Positions 1,353 through 11,807 of a stretch of DNA of 34,847 bases are shown here, piece after piece. The notes under the pieces are model-generated. The model was not told the DNA's origin. It was given only the letters and a program-made list of their open reading frames with translations, and did not search any database. Numbering within the stretch: the stretch's first letter is position 1; every line of letters begins with the position of its first letter. The position numbers and the translations under genes were made by a program. Location of the stretch: positions 1-34,847 of the forward strand of contig JAFGSM010000183.1 of NCBI GenBank assembly GCA_016934595.1, in the 5' to 3' direction. This stretch comes from a bacterium (lineage in GTDB: Bacteria > SZUA-182 > DTGQ01 > JAFGSM01).

Positions 1353-2522
1353 ATGATCAATGTATTGACACACCTTAAATGGTTGGACCTGATTGATATT
1401 CTGTTAATCACATTCGTGGTCTATCAGATATACATCCTGTTTCATGAAACCAAAGGTTTTCGAATCCTCATAGGTCTGTTTTGTCTGGCTGTAATATATG
1501 TTTTGATAAAATCATGGGGTTTATTCCTTTCGACATGGGTATTCGAGATTTTTTGGCAAGCATTGATAATATTGATAATAATCGTTTTTCAACCTGAAAT
1601 AAGAGACGTCCTGGCAAAATTTAATTTCCTGGATTTTTTTCAAGGGAACAAGGCAATATCACCAGATTCATCTGGAATAGAAGCAATATGCAGGAGTGTA
1701 TTCCGCATGGCCGAAAGCAAAACCGGCGCTATTATCGTTTTCAAACAAAGGGATGATTTGAAGGATCTGATTCGCGATGGTATAAGGCTTGACGGAGAAA
1801 TCAGCGAAACTGTCTTGTTGAGCATATTTCAAAAGTCCTCTTTTATACATGATGGCGCAGTCCTTATTGACGGAGGAAAAATAAAGATGGCGGGCGGTTA
1901 CCTGCCAATGACTGAGAGGGAAAACCTGCCTAAGCAATATGGTTCACGCCACAGGGCGTCTCTTGGCCTTTCTGAAAAAAGCGATGCCTTTATAGTAGTA
2001 GTTTCTGAGGAAAGGGGAGAGGTTTCCGTTGTCCAGAATGACACGATAAAGAAGGTCAGGGATATAGGGACATTGTCAAACATCATCAAGGGGCATTTTA
2101 TTCAAGAACGGAAGAAAAAGCTCCCAATTTTAAAGTCGTTTTTGTCAAAGATGTTGATAGAGGATTGGTCAAAAAAGGCCACTGCATTTTTGTTGGTTTT
2201 TGTCTTCTGGGCATTAATGGCAGGGCAGCAAAATTATTCTCAAGACTTGATAGTGCCCTTTGAATATAAAAAAATCCCTGCTAATATGGAATTGGTGTCA
2301 CCGCCACAAAATGCCAAAATCTCCATAAAAGGCATCCGCAAACTTGTTTCCTCATTAAAAGCCGAGGAAATCCGCATCGAACTGGATGTTTCATTGGCCC
2401 AGTGGGGGAGGCGCACTTACTATATCTCTCAGAAGGATATCAATCTGCCAGCCGGTATACAGTTACTGTACATTGAACCTTCTGTCCTTAAATTAGACTT
2501 TAAGACTACATCCACTATCTGA
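1353..2522 (+). CDS. cdaA: Diadenylate cyclase (CdaA/DisA_N family) fused to C-terminal YbbR (CdaR-like) domain
   Basis: N-terminal TM helices, DAC motifs FIHDGAVLI and GSRHRASLGLSE; additional TM (KKATAFLLVFVFWALMAG) followed by YbbR-like sequence. Confidence 0.88.
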   Translation: MINVLTHLKWLDLIDILLITFVVYQIYILFHETKGFRILIGLFCLAVIYVLIKSWGLFLSTWVFEIFWQALIILIIIVFQPEIRDVLAKFNFLDFFQGNKAISPDSSGIEAICRSVFRMAESKTGAIIVFKQRDDLKDLIRDGIRLDGEISETVLLSIFQKSSFIHDGAVLIDGGKIKMAGGYLPMTERENLPKQYGSRHRASLGLSEKSDAFIVVVSEERGEVSVVQNDTIKKVRDIGTLSNIIKGHFIQERKKKLPILKSFLSKMLIEDWSKKATAFLLVFVFWALMAGQQNYSQDLIVPFEYKKIPANMELVSPPQNAKISIKGIRKLVSSLKAEEIRIELDVSLAQWGRRTYYISQKDINLPAGIQLLYIEPSVLKLDFKTTSTI

Positions 2523-2842: not shown

Positions 2843-4435
2843 CTATATTTTCGCTATGGCCCGCCTTCCTTTCCCATTTACTATGAGATTGTAAGTCTTC
2901 TCAATTCTGTCCCAATTATGCTCCCGGTCAAGCGCCCAATAACGCCCGATGACGGATACTACCCTGCCTGTGCCCATCTGTTTCGTCTTTTCTTCTATCT
3001 GTCTGACATAATAGGCGCCGCTTTCAGGCCTCTCACCGCGCCTTCCCAGAAAAGAGTGTATGAATACCCTGTCTAAACCCTCGTTTTTGGCCATCTCCAT
3101 TAGCGCAAAAAGATAATCGATGGAACCATGAGAACTATAAAAGGATACAATGCCTATCAGATGGAGGTTTGTACCGTCGTTTATGGCGCCCCTTATCGCC
3201 CAGAGCAGATTATTATTACTGTAAAAGCTCCCATCCTTTATAGAATTTTCTATCCTGACTCTGTCAGATGGCACGATCCTGCCTGCACCCAAATGGAGAT
3301 GCCCTGATTCGGAATTTCCGACGGTGTCAGCCGGAAGGCCTACTGATTCGCCTGAAGCCGAAAGACACATCCAGGGATTCTTTTCCATAAGGCTATTCAT
3401 TACTTTTGTTTGAGCGGCGGCAATCAGATTCCCTTCATTCGATGGATTATAGCCCCATCCATCGACTATTAGCAAAAGGACTTTAAGGCCACTTTGAAAT
3501 GAAGGACAGGAATTTATAAGGCTTTTTCCTGTCATAACATCAGGTTTTGAAAGGCCGAGCATATGCAAAACCGTAGGGGCCACATCAATGAGGCCGCCTT
3601 CTCCATGAATCAATTCCATACTTTGCTTTCCGTCAGGGGATATAATCATAAAAGGGACAGGGCTGTCTGTATGTCCTGTATCTATCTTTCCATCAGGGTA
3701 ATACCATTTCTCCACTGTTCCATGATCTGCAACTACTACGGTGAATATATCCGCTGCCCTTGCCTCTTTGACAATCCTTCCTATATGATGATCCACTGTG
3801 CGCACCGCCTCAATAATGGCATCCCTGTTCTCTATGTGTCCAACTACATCTATATTGGCCAGGTTTGCACAGATCAGGTCATATCCTCCGCCTCTTATGG
3901 CCTCTATTATCTTGTCAGTCACTTCAGCGCAACTCATTTGGGGCGACTGGTCAAAATTCTTTACATCGGCAGGGGATGGTATAAGATCCCTGTCTTCACC
4001 CGGAAATGTATCTTCCCTTTTTCCGTTCATGAAATATGTAATATGTGTGGATTTTTCAGACTCCGTGATTTTAATCTGTCTCATCCCGGCATTACTGACC
4101 ACCTCGCTCAAGGTATCATGAATCAATCCCAAGGGCGGGAAAGCCACTTTAACATTCAGATCAGAATCATACTGTATCATGGTTACCCATTTTGTCCGCA
4201 GATTTATATTTATTGGAAATCTATCAAAACCAGGCGAGGTAAACGCCTGAGTAAGCTCAATCTCGCGTTCCCCCCTGATATCATAAAAGATCACATAGTC
4301 ACCGGAACAAATCCTTCCTATCGGACTATTATCAGATTTCACCAGACATATTGGACCCATGCCCTCTTCTTCTTCTCCGCACCTGTATGCATCTTTGATT
4401 GCAACCGACATGGGAAACGAGTTATTTTCTTCCAT
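2843..4435 (-). CDS. gpmI: Cofactor-independent phosphoglycerate mutase (iPGM family), circularly permuted domain order
   Basis: 530-aa ORF. Aa 1 to ~307 match the canonical C-terminal half (PVGRI.SGDYVIFYDIRGERE, TFPGEDRDLIPSP, ANIDVVGH, VVADHG, DTGHTDSPVP, MTGKSL); aa ~317-530 match the canonical N-terminal half (LLLIVDGWGYNPSNEGN, SGESVGLPADTVGNSESGHLHLGAGR, IGRYWALDREHNWDRIEKTY). AGGAG SD upstream. Confidence 0.88.
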   Translation of the reverse strand: MEENNSFPMSVAIKDAYRCGEEEEGMGPICLVKSDNSPIGRICSGDYVIFYDIRGEREIELTQAFTSPGFDRFPININLRTKWVTMIQYDSDLNVKVAFPPLGLIHDTLSEVVSNAGMRQIKITESEKSTHITYFMNGKREDTFPGEDRDLIPSPADVKNFDQSPQMSCAEVTDKIIEAIRGGGYDLICANLANIDVVGHIENRDAIIEAVRTVDHHIGRIVKEARAADIFTVVVADHGTVEKWYYPDGKIDTGHTDSPVPFMIISPDGKQSMELIHGEGGLIDVAPTVLHMLGLSKPDVMTGKSLINSCPSFQSGLKVLLLIVDGWGYNPSNEGNLIAAAQTKVMNSLMEKNPWMCLSASGESVGLPADTVGNSESGHLHLGAGRIVPSDRVRIENSIKDGSFYSNNNLLWAIRGAINDGTNLHLIGIVSFYSSHGSIDYLFALMEMAKNEGLDRVFIHSFLGRRGERPESGAYYVRQIEEKTKQMGTGRVVSVIGRYWALDREHNWDRIEKTYNLIVNGKGRRAIAKI

Positions 4436-4549
4436 ATAATTTACTCCTATAACTATAATATATCATTATAAAATGTACTCTTTTCTTAAGATCATTGACA
4501 TATAAGATATAAGACATATAACTACATGAACGATAAAGGTTTTTGTTCA

Positions 4550-5662
4550 CTAAAGAAATGCCCTACCCTTCCCTATTAGGCCAAAAGGCCGCACCTCCAA
4601 AAACCTTTCCTGACTTTCCATAGCAAATCCTATCCTGTGAAGCTCAATCTGATGTCGATCGCATATTTCTGCCAAAATATGTATATCGTCAGGGGCGCAG
4701 ACTATACAAAATCCTATACCCATATTAAAGACCCTAAACATCTCCCTGTCCGAAACCCCGCCTTTTTCCTTGATCAGTTTAAATATAGGCGGAGGATCGG
4801 GAAGATGATCGATGATAAAGGCAACCTGTGAATCCACCCTGAGAAGATTAAGCAGGCCGTCGCCAGTGATATGGCAAAATGCCTTTACTCCGGACATCTT
4901 CTCCATAACATCCAGAATAACAGGGACATATATGCGGGTAGGTATAAGTAATTCTTCACCTAAGGTTTTGCCAAGCTCAGGGATCATGCTGTCTATCTTC
5001 AAGCCGCCATCATTAAAAAGAACCCTTCTTGCCAAGGAAAAGCCATTGCTATGGATTCCACTGCTAGACAATCCGAATACAATATCTCCAGGCGCTATAC
5101 CTTTACCCGTAAGGATCCTGTCTGTTTCAACTATGCCTATGGCCATACCTGCAAGGTCAAATCCCTTTCCCTCCTCCAGACCTTTAATAAGATCCCTGAC
5201 CTGAGCGGTTTCGCCTCCTGGAATAGCAACTCCGGACTGTTTTGCCCCCTCATAAAGCCCTTTGGCTATTTCGCTTAGAATATTTTCGTCAATCCTTTGC
5301 AAGGCCAGATAATTCAGCATGGATATAGGCCTGGCTCCCACACACAGAATGTCATTCACGTTCATAGCCACACAGTCAATGCCTATGGTGCTATAATCTC
5401 CCATCATCTGGGCAACAAGCACCTTTGTCCCTACCCCGTCCGCTGATAAGGCGATACCTATATCTTTTTCACCTGTACTAATCTTGATGACATTCGCAAA
5501 ATGTCCCAGATCCAGAATGACCTCGCCAGGCATATTTCTGGTAAAGGAGAAGGTTTCCCGTATCATATCTAAAAACCCCCTCATGCTGACAGTTTCTGCC
5601 GGAGTATCCACACCCGATTCTGCGTAATTATCCCTCGATCTTTTATCCGTTCTAAAATCCAT
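4550..5662 (-). CDS. purM: Phosphoribosylformylglycinamidine cyclo-ligase (AIR synthetase)
   Basis: Motifs NYAESGVD, LSADGVGTKVLVAQ, DCVAMNVNDILCVGARP, PGGETAQ, GLSSSGIHSNGFSL; SD GGAGGGAAAGG upstream. Confidence 0.95.
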   Translation of the reverse strand: MDFRTDKRSRDNYAESGVDTPAETVSMRGFLDMIRETFSFTRNMPGEVILDLGHFANVIKISTGEKDIGIALSADGVGTKVLVAQMMGDYSTIGIDCVAMNVNDILCVGARPISMLNYLALQRIDENILSEIAKGLYEGAKQSGVAIPGGETAQVRDLIKGLEEGKGFDLAGMAIGIVETDRILTGKGIAPGDIVFGLSSSGIHSNGFSLARRVLFNDGGLKIDSMIPELGKTLGEELLIPTRIYVPVILDVMEKMSGVKAFCHITGDGLLNLLRVDSQVAFIIDHLPDPPPIFKLIKEKGGVSDREMFRVFNMGIGFCIVCAPDDIHILAEICDRHQIELHRIGFAMESQERFLEVRPFGLIGKGRAFL

Positions 5663-5718
5663 TTTTCCTTTCCTCCCTGTTCCGGACTTGTTCTCTTTTT
5701 TATTTTATCTTCAACTTT

Positions 5719-5915
5719 GTCTCGAAAATAGATTCTATTTTCATAGTTCGTGGCGGCCTGAAAGGCCATGGGTGTTTGTTCAGAAAATAAAACCATGTTG
5801 TTTATTTTCATGCTTAATGGCAACATTAAGTGGCATGTGGGTCTGTCTCTAAAATAAAACCTCATTGCCTATTTTCATCCTTCATGTCGCCTTAAAACGG
5901 CATGACCATTTGTCT
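5719..5915. repeat. REP-like palindromic intergenic repeat cluster (purM-purD interval)
   Basis: Multiple copies of the tctcgaaaatagattctattttcat..cgtggcggcctgaaaggccatg unit found elsewhere in the window. Confidence 0.75.
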
Positions 5916-5977
5916 ATTGACCACAGGCCATCTTTAAAAGGCGTGCTTCCATAGAATATTGCGCAGTTACAAATCCG

Positions 5978-7261
5978 TCAAAAAAGTCCAAGCCTTCTAA
6001 GTCCTTTTTGAGCAATATCCCTCCTGAAATAAATCCCCTCAAACTGGATGAGATCAATAGCCTTATATGCCTTGTCTACAGCCTGCCTTAGATCGCTGCC
6101 CAAAGCTGTGACTCCCAAAACCCTGCCGCCATTTGTAAGTACCTTTCTACCCTCTTTCCTTGTGCCTGAATGGAAAACTGTAACCCCTTTAATCTTCGAA
6201 ACCTCTTTCAGCCCGGAAATCTCCTTTCCCTTTTCATAAACGTCAGGATAACCTGAAGAAACCGCTACCACGCATACCGCTGCATTATTACTCCATGAAA
6301 GTTTTACACCTGAAAGCTTGACTTTTATAACCGCCTGTATTACAGGCATAAGATCATCCTCCATACGCAGCAGGATAGGCTGGGTCTCAGGGTCTCCAAA
6401 CCTGCAATTAAATTCAAGGACAAATGGCTCGTTATCTTTGATCATAAGACCTGCATAAAGAACCCCCTTATAAGTTATCCCTCTTTTGGTCATCCCACGA
6501 ACAACCGGCAGCATTATTTTATCCATAATCTTCTTGTGTATCTCGGGGGTGATAACTGGCGCGGGAGAATAAGCCCCCATACCTCCGGTATTTGGCCCCT
6601 GATCCTGTTCACGTATTGATTTATGATCTTGGGACGACGCCATTGGCAAGACCGTTTTCCCATCTGTAAACGCCAAGAAAGACGCCTCTTCACCTGTAAG
6701 GAGGTCCTCAAGTATAATCTTATTGCCAGCCGCGCCAAACGCCTTTTCAATGATAATCTTTTGGACCGCCCTTTGAGTATCCCTGAGGTTTTGACATATA
6801 ATTACGCCTTTTCCGGCAGCAATGCCGTCCGCCTTGACTACTATGGGAAAACCCCTATTTTTGGCATATTCAAGGGCAGAACCGCAATCGGTAAAAACTG
6901 CAAAATCTGGCGTGGGAATACCGCTTTCCTTCATCAGTTCTTTGGCAAATGACTTGCTTGATTCAAGTATCGCGGCATCCTTTGAAGGACCGAATATCTT
7001 TAATCCCTTGCTATTAAATGTGTCAACTATGCCTAAACTCAATGGCGCCTCAGGCCCAACTATAGTAATATCAACACCATTTTGTTTTGCAAGATCGGAA
7101 AGTCCCTCGCAATCAGATAAATCCCATGGAACACACTCAGCTATCTCTTCAATGCCCGCATTGCCAGGCACACAAATAATATGGGATACAAGAGGGCTCT
7201 TTTTCAACTTCCAAGCCAGGGCGTGTTCCCTCCCCCCGCCGCCTATAATCATAATTTTCAT
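5978..7261 (-). CDS. purD: Phosphoribosylamine-glycine ligase
   Basis: MKIMIIGGGGREHALAWKL, GPEAPLSLGIVD, KADGIAAGKGVI, DHKSIREQDQGPNTGGMGAYSPAP, EFNCRFGDPETQPIL. Confidence 0.97.
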   Translation of the reverse strand: MKIMIIGGGGREHALAWKLKKSPLVSHIICVPGNAGIEEIAECVPWDLSDCEGLSDLAKQNGVDITIVGPEAPLSLGIVDTFNSKGLKIFGPSKDAAILESSKSFAKELMKESGIPTPDFAVFTDCGSALEYAKNRGFPIVVKADGIAAGKGVIICQNLRDTQRAVQKIIIEKAFGAAGNKIILEDLLTGEEASFLAFTDGKTVLPMASSQDHKSIREQDQGPNTGGMGAYSPAPVITPEIHKKIMDKIMLPVVRGMTKRGITYKGVLYAGLMIKDNEPFVLEFNCRFGDPETQPILLRMEDDLMPVIQAVIKVKLSGVKLSWSNNAAVCVVAVSSGYPDVYEKGKEISGLKEVSKIKGVTVFHSGTRKEGRKVLTNGGRVLGVTALGSDLRQAVDKAYKAIDLIQFEGIYFRRDIAQKGLRRLGLF

Positions 7262-8570: not shown

Positions 8571-11500
8571 TCAAAGGGCCTGCCATAAACCTCCTGGAAT
8601 GGGAGGAAATCCTTGCCTCCCGCTTATTATAAGATAACTCTCTTCATCATCTTCCCTTTCTGCGCACTGTTTGGGAAAAAATAAAACAAAATCCTTAAGT
8701 GAATCAGGCAAGACGGCTAATCTGCCGCTTATATCAACCACAGGGGCGTCGATTTCCACTATTCCATCTATGCCAAGGCGGGAGGAGGCTCTTACAATGC
8801 TTTCAGAAGAAGAAACAAATACGTCACAGACAATATTGATATTCCCCCCCCTTCCAGCCTCTGCATCTGCGATAATCCTACTTTTGTTTAAAATCACAAA
8901 GACAGGATCGATCATTATATTGCCGCCATTTCCGGCGCCACCTTTCACCGAAGTCGTTATTTGGCTATTTTTCAGGTCTACCAAACGTTGAGCATGAATC
9001 TGGATATTGCCGCCATCTGCGCACTTAGCTTCGGTTGTGATGAAACTGCCTTCACAATATATCGCGTCAGCGGCATTTATTATTATGTCTCCGGCATTTC
9101 CTGTATCAGAGCTGTCTGCCATGATATTGGCCCTATCGTATAATTGCAGATCGTCTACAGATATTCGGATCGTGCCCCCTTTCCCTTTTCCCAGTGTTGA
9201 AGCCATTATACAGCTTCCATCTCCGGATAACATTAAATATCCTGCTGACAATGATATACCGCCGGCATCTCCATCTGAAGACGCCAGGCTGCAAATTCCC
9301 GCATAGGAACCTTCACCGCTCATGTTGGATACGTATATATTATCTAAGGCAAGAACCGATATGTTGCCGCCATTCCCTGATCCAAGGCTTGAGCTGTTAA
9401 TCAATCCGTCATCTGTTATTTTCAGATCCTTGACCTTTAACGAGATATTGCCTGCGTTTCCATTGGTGAATTCCCCTGCAAGCGTTTCTATAATACCCCC
9501 ATCAGCGATCACCAGCAGAGGCGTTTCAATATCGATAGATCCTGCTCTGGCATCCCCTCCTGTAATGGCCTTTATCCTGCTTCCGGAAACAAAGACAGAA
9601 TCCTCAGCAACGATCATTATATCCCCTCCGCAGCCATCGCTTTCGTTTGTGCTTGAATCAATCTGAGAGCCATGGGTTATTTCAACAGTCCCTGCCTGCA
9701 CTGTGATTTTGCCTGCCGATCCACTGCCAAAAACCGTTGAGGAGCTTATCTGCCCTCCATTGTGAACAGTTAAATAAGGTGTGGATATAAAGATATTCCC
9801 TGCATTCCCGCTGCCTCCGGTCATGCTGAAAAGCCCAAATACGGAGAAAGGCCCATCCCTTAAATGTGAAATCATTATAGATTCCGAAGCGGAGATTGTT
9901 ATGTCCCCGCCTTCTCCTGATGATCCTTTTAGACAACTTGCGCTTATATAACCATCCAATATTTCCAGGCGATCCAGTTCCATGAGGATATCCCCTCCCC
10001 TGCCTTCAGAATCAGTAACACCGCTGATAATCCCGCCATTTTTGATAGTCAATCTGGACGTTTTTATGGAAACACTTCCGGCATCGCCTTCCCCCCTGGC
10101 TTCAGACCCTATGCCGCTTGTAGATCCCTTTTGGGAGCCGGATATCAGAATAGAGTCCCATGCGCATATCATTATATCACCACTTTGGCCTGAACCGTAA
10201 GCATTAATTGCTATCTCCCCGCCCTTTGTCAAAACCAGATCTTCCACATCTATAACAACATCAGCGCCCCTGCCTTCGGAATCCGGATATGTCTCCCCCG
10301 AAATAATACCCTCGTTGCCAATAATAAGGCATGAACCCTGCACAGAAATAGCGCCTGCATTGCCGCTTCCATTGGCATGAGAATATATACCGCTTTTCTG
10401 CTCCCCTGCGCCCCATATACTTATAGACCCTTTGGCCTTGACCGTAACATCTCCTCCCCTGCCCTGATCAAGGCTTGAATTATCGATATTCCCTCCGCCT
10501 GTGATTTTTAAATTTTCTACATCAACCGAAATATCAGGGGCAAGGCCGGAACCAAAATTCTCACCTGAAATCTTTGCATTGCCTGAAATAGCCAGATTAG
10601 GCGAAGATATCAAAAGATCGCCTGCATCCCCTTCATCCTCCCCCCATAAATACACGCCGCTATGGACACCGCCGGCATCAAAATCCCCTGATATTTCGAT
10701 TGATTCACCGGCTGAAATGTGGATGTCCCCTCCCTGTGAATATCCGCTTGATCCGCTTTTTATTGTGCCGTTATTAGCAAGCGTCAATTTCTCTGTATCA
10801 ATCAAGATATCGCTGCTTTTCCCTTTTTCTATTCCACAGGTTTTAATCTCCCCCCCTCTTGTAACAAGCAACTCATCCCTCATGCCTATGTCAATGCGTC
10901 CTTCCCCTTCTCCTGCTTGTACTGTCGAACTGATATATGAATTTGCGATCTCAAACCTTCCGCCGCGTATGATAATTCTCCCTGCATCTTCACCTGAAAC
11001 TTCGATAGAAGAGTCATTCGACATTCTGATATCTCCAAGCCGGGCGAATGAGTCAAGATTCTTATCGGAATCATCCGGTAAAACCTCGCCTCTGGAGGAG
11101 ACGCTGATCAGATTTATTTGGCCGCTTTTTGCATGACACACTCCATTTACTATTTCCAGATCCCCTCCCACCAGGGATAATGCCTCCCCTTCCTGGGTTT
11201 CAAGAGAGGCCCCATCAATAGAAATACCGGCAGGGTCATCACACAAGAAGCCAAAAGCGCTGGGCGGATCAACACTTAAAAGGCTTTGATCAGGACGGGC
11301 TGCATCAAAACGCCCTTTCTCCCCAAGCCTTATATAGTCGGCAGTGGTTGCATGGAAAGAACCGGAAATATCAATTTGTGCATTGGGGCCGAACAATACG
11401 CCGCTGGGGTTTATCAAATAAAGATCGGCGTTTGTGATTGTTGATCTTATAATGCCGTCGATCCATGAAGCTGTTCCTCCTGTCACGCGGCCAATTATAT

Positions 11501-11807
11501 TCTCTATGCCTGAATGACCTGCAAAGGTTGCGGTTTCACCTGAGCGCACATTGAATTCCCTGAAACTGTGAAACAGGTTAGCTCCGACCTGCTTGCCCAT
11601 CGTATCCATGATTACATAGTCAGGTCCTGAAAGATCGCTGTATAGCCCTAATGTCCCGTCAAATGCAATCTGGGCATAAGCCCTGGCAGAGAATACCCAT
11701 TGATGCGATATCAAGAATATGAATACGAATACAAACACTAATACGGATACGAATTTTATTACAAAGGTAATAATGCGCCTTATGCTTGTAAATATTTCAG
11801 GATACAT
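8571..11807 (-). CDS. Two-partner-secretion exoprotein, filamentous haemagglutinin N-terminal (TPS) domain plus right-handed beta-helix repeats
   Basis: Signal/TM segment then AQIAFDGTLG...FHSFREFNVRSGETATFAG...IIGRVTGG..SWIDGIIRSTITNADLYLINPSGVLFGPNAQIDISGSFHATTADYIRLGE, followed by repeated GGDI.I.A..SI.ISG / GNAG.I.I motifs. Confidence 0.93.
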   Translation of the reverse strand: MYPEIFTSIRRIITFVIKFVSVLVFVFVFIFLISHQWVFSARAYAQIAFDGTLGLYSDLSGPDYVIMDTMGKQVGANLFHSFREFNVRSGETATFAGHSGIENIIGRVTGGTASWIDGIIRSTITNADLYLINPSGVLFGPNAQIDISGSFHATTADYIRLGEKGRFDAARPDQSLLSVDPPSAFGFLCDDPAGISIDGASLETQEGEALSLVGGDLEIVNGVCHAKSGQINLISVSSRGEVLPDDSDKNLDSFARLGDIRMSNDSSIEVSGEDAGRIIIRGGRFEIANSYISSTVQAGEGEGRIDIGMRDELLVTRGGEIKTCGIEKGKSSDILIDTEKLTLANNGTIKSGSSGYSQGGDIHISAGESIEISGDFDAGGVHSGVYLWGEDEGDAGDLLISSPNLAISGNAKISGENFGSGLAPDISVDVENLKITGGGNIDNSSLDQGRGGDVTVKAKGSISIWGAGEQKSGIYSHANGSGNAGAISVQGSCLIIGNEGIISGETYPDSEGRGADVVIDVEDLVLTKGGEIAINAYGSGQSGDIMICAWDSILISGSQKGSTSGIGSEARGEGDAGSVSIKTSRLTIKNGGIISGVTDSEGRGGDILMELDRLEILDGYISASCLKGSSGEGGDITISASESIMISHLRDGPFSVFGLFSMTGGSGNAGNIFISTPYLTVHNGGQISSSTVFGSGSAGKITVQAGTVEITHGSQIDSSTNESDGCGGDIMIVAEDSVFVSGSRIKAITGGDARAGSIDIETPLLVIADGGIIETLAGEFTNGNAGNISLKVKDLKITDDGLINSSSLGSGNGGNISVLALDNIYVSNMSGEGSYAGICSLASSDGDAGGISLSAGYLMLSGDGSCIMASTLGKGKGGTIRISVDDLQLYDRANIMADSSDTGNAGDIIINAADAIYCEGSFITTEAKCADGGNIQIHAQRLVDLKNSQITTSVKGGAGNGGNIMIDPVFVILNKSRIIADAEAGRGGNINIVCDVFVSSSESIVRASSRLGIDGIVEIDAPVVDISGRLAVLPDSLKDFVLFFPKQCAEREDDEESYLIISGRQGFPPIPGGLWQAL

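Follow-up and report, generated by a model that had tools for sequence, protein, structure and literature searches.

Does the open reading frame (ORF) in this window, the whole 34,847-nucleotide stretch of DNA that was analysed, encode one complete cofactor-independent phosphoglycerate mutase (iPGM) whose two parts have exchanged places, as an initial annotation made from the sequence proposed, and what reaction would such a protein perform? Alignments, trees and a predicted structure indicate that the window protein is almost certainly a permuted enzyme of the iPGM family. It departs from the ordinary enzyme in two features, the order of the chain and the residue Asp154.

Results

Rotated order of a complete iPGM

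The 530-residue frame is present where it had been placed; its strand, which the initial annotation left unstated, is minus, and the plus strand over the same positions contains stops throughout. The features of the gene and its neighbours are collected in Table 1.

Table 1. Positions in the window of the permuted gene, its parts and its neighbours
Feature	Position	Strand	Basis
Permuted iPGM-family ORF, 530 aa	2843..4435	minus	frame and homology to iPGM
Canonical C-terminal part, aa 12-307 (B. stearothermophilus iPGM 219-509)	3515..4402	minus	phmmer
Linker, aa 308-316 (from the MTGKSLI end to LKVLLLIVDGWG)	3488..3514	minus	in-frame reading
Canonical N-terminal part, aa 318-523 (B. stearothermophilus iPGM 5-210)	2867..3484	minus	phmmer
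Ser375 (B. stearothermophilus Ser62) in GNSESGH, predicted phosphoserine nucleophile, invariant	3311..3313	minus	alignment
GRRGE, aa 464-468, replacing canonical DGRD(T/V)	3032..3046	minus	family signature
SSHGS, aa 434-438, around conserved His436 (His123), replacing GGVHS	3122..3136	minus	family signature
RGER, aa 54-57, replacing canonical RxDR (Arg261, Asp263, Arg264)	4265..4276	minus	alignment
AGGAG, ribosome-binding-site-like, a short distance before the ATG	4444..4448	minus	sequence
Neighbour, PurM-like AIR synthase	4550..5662	minus	context
Neighbour, CdaA-like diadenylate cyclase, convergent	1353..2522	plus	context

In phmmer searches against the PDB, the protein matched the B. stearothermophilus iPGM (1EJJ) in two pieces, query residues 318-523 with 1EJJ 5-210 (162.8 bits) and query residues 12-307 with 1EJJ 219-509 (203.6 bits), and homology thus extends over the complete chain and both domains. 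The former piece holds the metal/Ser part of the phosphatase domain and the first part of the transferase domain; the latter holds the remainder of the transferase domain and the main part of the phosphatase domain. Every PDB match listed was an iPGM chain and was likewise aligned as two rotated stretches. BLASTP against canonical iPGM ORFs of other genomes gave 24 rows, which represent 22 distinct ORFs once two duplicates are set aside, and the arrangement was rotated in all of them. None of the canonical members compared aligned co-linearly from N to C terminus, the one alignment result that had been named as fatal to a permutation. No off-diagonal self-match was detected by BLASTP within the 530 residues, in agreement with the earlier statement that no segment is duplicated; both parts of one ancestral protein are present, once each and swapped, as in a circular permutant. 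The junction that had been read as MTGKSLI, NSCPSFQSG and LKVLLLIVDGWG was found in frame with its nine-residue linker, which lies between the old C and N termini and varies in both length and sequence across the permuted family.

Both Pfam profiles that had been suggested for a check matched the window protein, Metalloenzyme (aa 102-296) coming before iPGM_N (aa 394-524). Against the NCBIfam model TIGR01307, the whole protein scored 479.4 bits (cut-off 330.65), whereas its single co-linear stretches scored 263 and 220 bits, both below the cut-off. Because TIGR01307 sums the two rotated pieces past its cut-off, automatic annotation would probably call the permuted protein GpmI and hide the rotation.

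Homologues and distribution

A search for homologues with the same domain order had been recommended, and at least 23 other genomes encode this order co-linearly, at 47-56% identity; the assembly junction that had been raised as an objection is therefore excluded. The carriers belong to Chloroflexota, deltaproteobacterial groups, Zixibacteria, Neomarinimicrobiota, Planctomycetota, Armatimonadetes and others, a taxonomy taken from metagenome-assembled genome labels that may individually be imprecise. When each GTDB species was represented by a single genome, the scan yielded 13 contigs with relatives at 51-55% identity; all 13 are co-linear with the permuted query across practically its full length, with one shortened near its end. 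In this contig (L044, candidate division Zixibacteria SM23_81, 4968-6479), the gene stops short near the C terminus after GRRGELPESGA and unrelated residues lie beyond, which suggests a frameshift or sequencing error.

Among 386 genomes drawn mostly from different families, nine carriers were identified by homology (the window's own genome and eight further ones). The DNA pattern for SSHG(S/T)...GRRGE occurred in 10 of the 386, each with a permuted gene and two of them newly found, and the reversed-pattern control gave zero among the rows listed for these genomes. The window's own genome has a single copy. The distribution is patchy, because none of four genomes of the same order as the window's source carries the permuted gene, and this suggests horizontal transfer or repeated loss. 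No permuted relative was found in viral contigs; the plasmid and phage matches listed were all in two pieces, like those of canonical iPGMs.

A single split between permuted and canonical proteins

After the permuted chains had been rearranged to match the ordinary enzymes, the tree placed the 21 permuted proteins and the 23 canonical ones on opposite sides of one branch with an SH-aLRT support of 100 and a length of 1.12 changes per column. The same split, again with a support of 100, was recovered from the N-terminal half alone, from the C-terminal half alone and from the whole protein after removal of the signature columns. Because both halves give the same split, they share one history, that of one protein permuted once and not of two unrelated fragments fused. 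These half trees and the rotated alignment bear out the earlier view of a true circular permutation of one full enzyme, neither tandem fusion nor chimera. The trees point to one ancient permutation, or strictly to one change of order, the tree being unrooted; the wider distribution of the canonical order suggests that it is the ancestral one.

Conserved and altered active-site residues

All 21 permuted proteins carry the equivalents of D12, S62, D403, H407, D444, H445 and H462 without exception, and they accordingly retain the two-metal site and the Ser nucleophile. In the B. stearothermophilus enzyme, the contacts to 2PG/3PG are S62, H123, R153, D154, R185, R191, R261, R264 and K336 (PMC3886921). 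Eight of these nine residues (S62, H123, R153, R185, R191, R261, R264 and K336) are invariant in the permuted clade; the full set is broken at Asp154, which is Asp in 23/23 canonical proteins and Gly in 21/21 permuted ones. Asp154 is presumably the general base in the B. stearothermophilus iPGM. Its position is occupied in the window protein by Gly467, next to a new Glu468 that is invariant in the permuted family.

Four motifs are exchanged in the permuted clade, DGRD for GRRGE, GGVHS for SSHGS, RxDR for RGER (both Arg retained, Asp263 to Glu) and ADHGN for ADHGT. Further fixed or nearly fixed changes comprise D151G, G152R, residue 155 to Glu, S124G, V122S, D263E, M404V, G409E, N447T/S, Q77S and L116I. 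In the samples examined, rotation and pocket change always go together. The initial annotation had regarded the catalytic motifs as all retained; DGWG, GNSESGH, D..GH, ADHG and the His of TGHT are indeed kept, but the canonical DGRD with its Asp154 is absent.

Predicted structure and domain layout

An AlphaFold2 model built with a 15-row family alignment had a pLDDT of 85.9 and a pTM of 0.84. Foldseek, which depends on chain order, returned only iPGMs as significant matches, with about one half superposing (E down to 3e-19, TM 0.37-0.49). The alignment with 4NWJ spans 282 columns at an rmsd of 2.9 and a TM of 0.46-0.49. For this model, such half-only superposition is what would be expected of a permutant. 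The limits commonly given for the B. stearothermophilus iPGM are residues 1-76 and 311-511 for the phosphatase domain and residues 77-310 for the transferase domain. With these limits, both of the original termini lie in the phosphatase domain; they would have been joined through the short variable linker, and the chain would have been reopened in the transferase-domain loop between canonical residues 210 and 219, which agrees with the earlier placement of the new termini inside the phosphotransferase domain. The phosphatase domain would then run without interruption (about aa 102-389), and it would be the transferase domain that is split (about aa 1-101 and 390-530), the reverse of the ordinary enzyme.

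Other mutases and gene context

No canonical GpmI was found in the window's own genome, which encodes a cofactor-dependent GpmA (420 bits, PRK14115; C11:3761-4489), an ApgM of the PRK04135 type (559 bits; C222:7529-8656) and a second ApgM-like protein (536 bits; C199:6451-7533) that matches PRK04200 and 'proposed homoserine kinase' models. An ApgM-type gene scored above the cut-off in 20 of the 24 carriers; the remaining ones are G061, which has a canonical GpmI, the Thermoflexales drafts G068 and G070, and G400, which lay outside the searches for GpmI and GpmA. In the two Thermoflexales drafts, enolase is present and no ApgM, GpmI or full GpmA was found, and the permuted enzyme might be their phosphoglycerate mutase (PGM), unless the drafts are incomplete. 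The permuted enzyme is seldom the sole candidate PGM in its carriers. Because two kinds of PGM occur together in many bacteria, the presence of another PGM beside the permuted gene is weak evidence for a diverged function.

Clustering of the ORFs around 22 family members revealed no conserved neighbourhood that names a substrate; besides the permuted gene itself, only clusters of two or three members were formed. In two lineages (G048 and G341; L047:9919-10944 and L062:8792-9799 (minus strand)), the gene just upstream of the permuted one encodes a lipoprotein-like protein of 335-341 aa. The two proteins are homologous, and the L047 copy overlaps the start of the permuted gene and has no Pfam match. 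A Macro-domain gene lies directly downstream in two deltaproteobacterial contigs (L033:4841-5374 and L045:6591-7142). Elsewhere in the window, positions 8571-11807 (minus strand) encode a protein of 1078 aa that begins with a TPS secretion domain of the two-partner-secretion type and has no further Pfam match.

Discussion

The rotated iPGM lineage is real and old and apparently undescribed; our literature search, which was not exhaustive, found no paper on a natural iPGM permutant. With regard to the name phosphoglycerate mutase given by the initial annotation, the permuted iPGM-family structure stands, but the function label is not established, in view of the Gly at position 154 in 21/21 proteins, the rewritten pocket loops and the second PGM in most carriers. 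If the enzyme acts in an iPGM-like manner, a small phosphorylated hydroxy acid would give up its phosphoryl group to the two-metal site and Ser375, the domains would close, and the group would be handed back. We consider it fairly probable, on sequence grounds, that one ancient permutation and a phosphoserine-type mutase with a diverged substrate or chemistry together describe this lineage. Taken by itself, and granted a permuted iPGM-family enzyme, the divergence in substrate or chemistry is an expectation towards which we lean slightly. A diverged substrate or general-base chemistry seems somewhat likelier than plain 3PG/2PG mutation because the pocket change is coordinated (Asp154 to Gly, GRRGE, SSHGS and RGER) and a second type of PGM occurs in most carriers. 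Rotation and pocket change may also have arisen on one stem branch and produced a separate family that catalyses a new reaction, as a phosphomutase or phosphotransferase acting on a non-phosphoglycerate substrate and hidden under the name GpmI; our judgement of this proposal is evenly balanced.

The main rival is an ordinary mutase interconverting 3PG and 2PG, with merely rotated termini and Glu468 in the role of Asp154, which we regard as possible and somewhat doubtful. All metal ligands and Ser62 are kept, Asp154 is the only one of the nine contact residues to be lost, the new invariant Glu468 adjoins its position, the TIGR01307 score of 479 bits exceeds 330.65, and two drafts have enolase without another recognised PGM. 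This explanation nevertheless has to accommodate the loss of Asp154 in 21/21 proteins together with the joint rewriting of DGRD, GGVHS, RxDR and ADHGN, the long branch of 1.12 changes per column, and the other PGM type in most carriers, with both ApgM and GpmA in the window's own genome. The lost general base Asp154 could also indicate a metal-dependent phosphatase or phosphotransferase that does not perform the re-transfer of a mutase; the changes affect the pocket of the transferase domain and leave the catalytic site of the phosphatase domain intact, and weak Pfam matches to Sulfatase and Phosphodiest, reflecting the common fold, would be compatible with this. It is nonetheless improbable, as the five transferase-side Arg, His123 and Lys336 are invariant and a plain hydrolase would not need them.

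That the rotation itself arose through misassembly or a frameshift, or because parts of two different genes were fused, hardly deserves credence. In favour of such an error, the draft assembly behind the window consists of 272 contigs, and every carrier with a named record is a metagenome-assembled genome. The independent homologues, which are encoded co-linearly in at least 23 other genomes and are 47-56% identical, and the recovery of the same permuted clade from each half separately rule out artefact and chimera, and only one copy is present in the window's own genome.

A natural permutant spread across several bacterial phyla implies that, in a two-domain metalloenzyme, the domain that is split can be exchanged while the catalytic core is kept. 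The permuted iPGM is in this respect an experiment made by nature on the order of folding and the motion of domains, and the signature-linked pocket change predicts a new or altered activity.

Among known systems, GpmI (TIGR01307; 1EJJ) is similar to the permuted protein in its two-domain chain, metal ligands, Ser62, His123, Arg153/185/191/261/264 and Lys336, and canonical members are about 30-45% identical to it in each half. Unlike the permuted protein, GpmI has the canonical order, a split phosphatase domain and a continuous transferase domain, and it carries Asp154, DGRD, GGVHS, RxDR and ADHGN where the permuted clade carries Gly, GRRGE, SSHGS, RGER and ADHGT. The ApgM-type iPGM (TIGR00306, PRK04135), which has a different domain insert, shares the metalloenzyme superfamily and is a separate gene in most carriers; permuted proteins reach only about 27-39 bits against TIGR00306, in the C-terminal metal region, and the window protein, at 34.5 bits against a cut-off of 320, is not an ApgM. 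PhpG, the CMP-5'-phosphonoformate-3-phosphoglycerate phosphonoformyl transferase (NF038358), is a superfamily relative to whose family the window protein, with only 13 bits, does not belong; its NCBIfam name describes a transfer reaction on 3PG, which indicates that this fold can acquire other chemistry.
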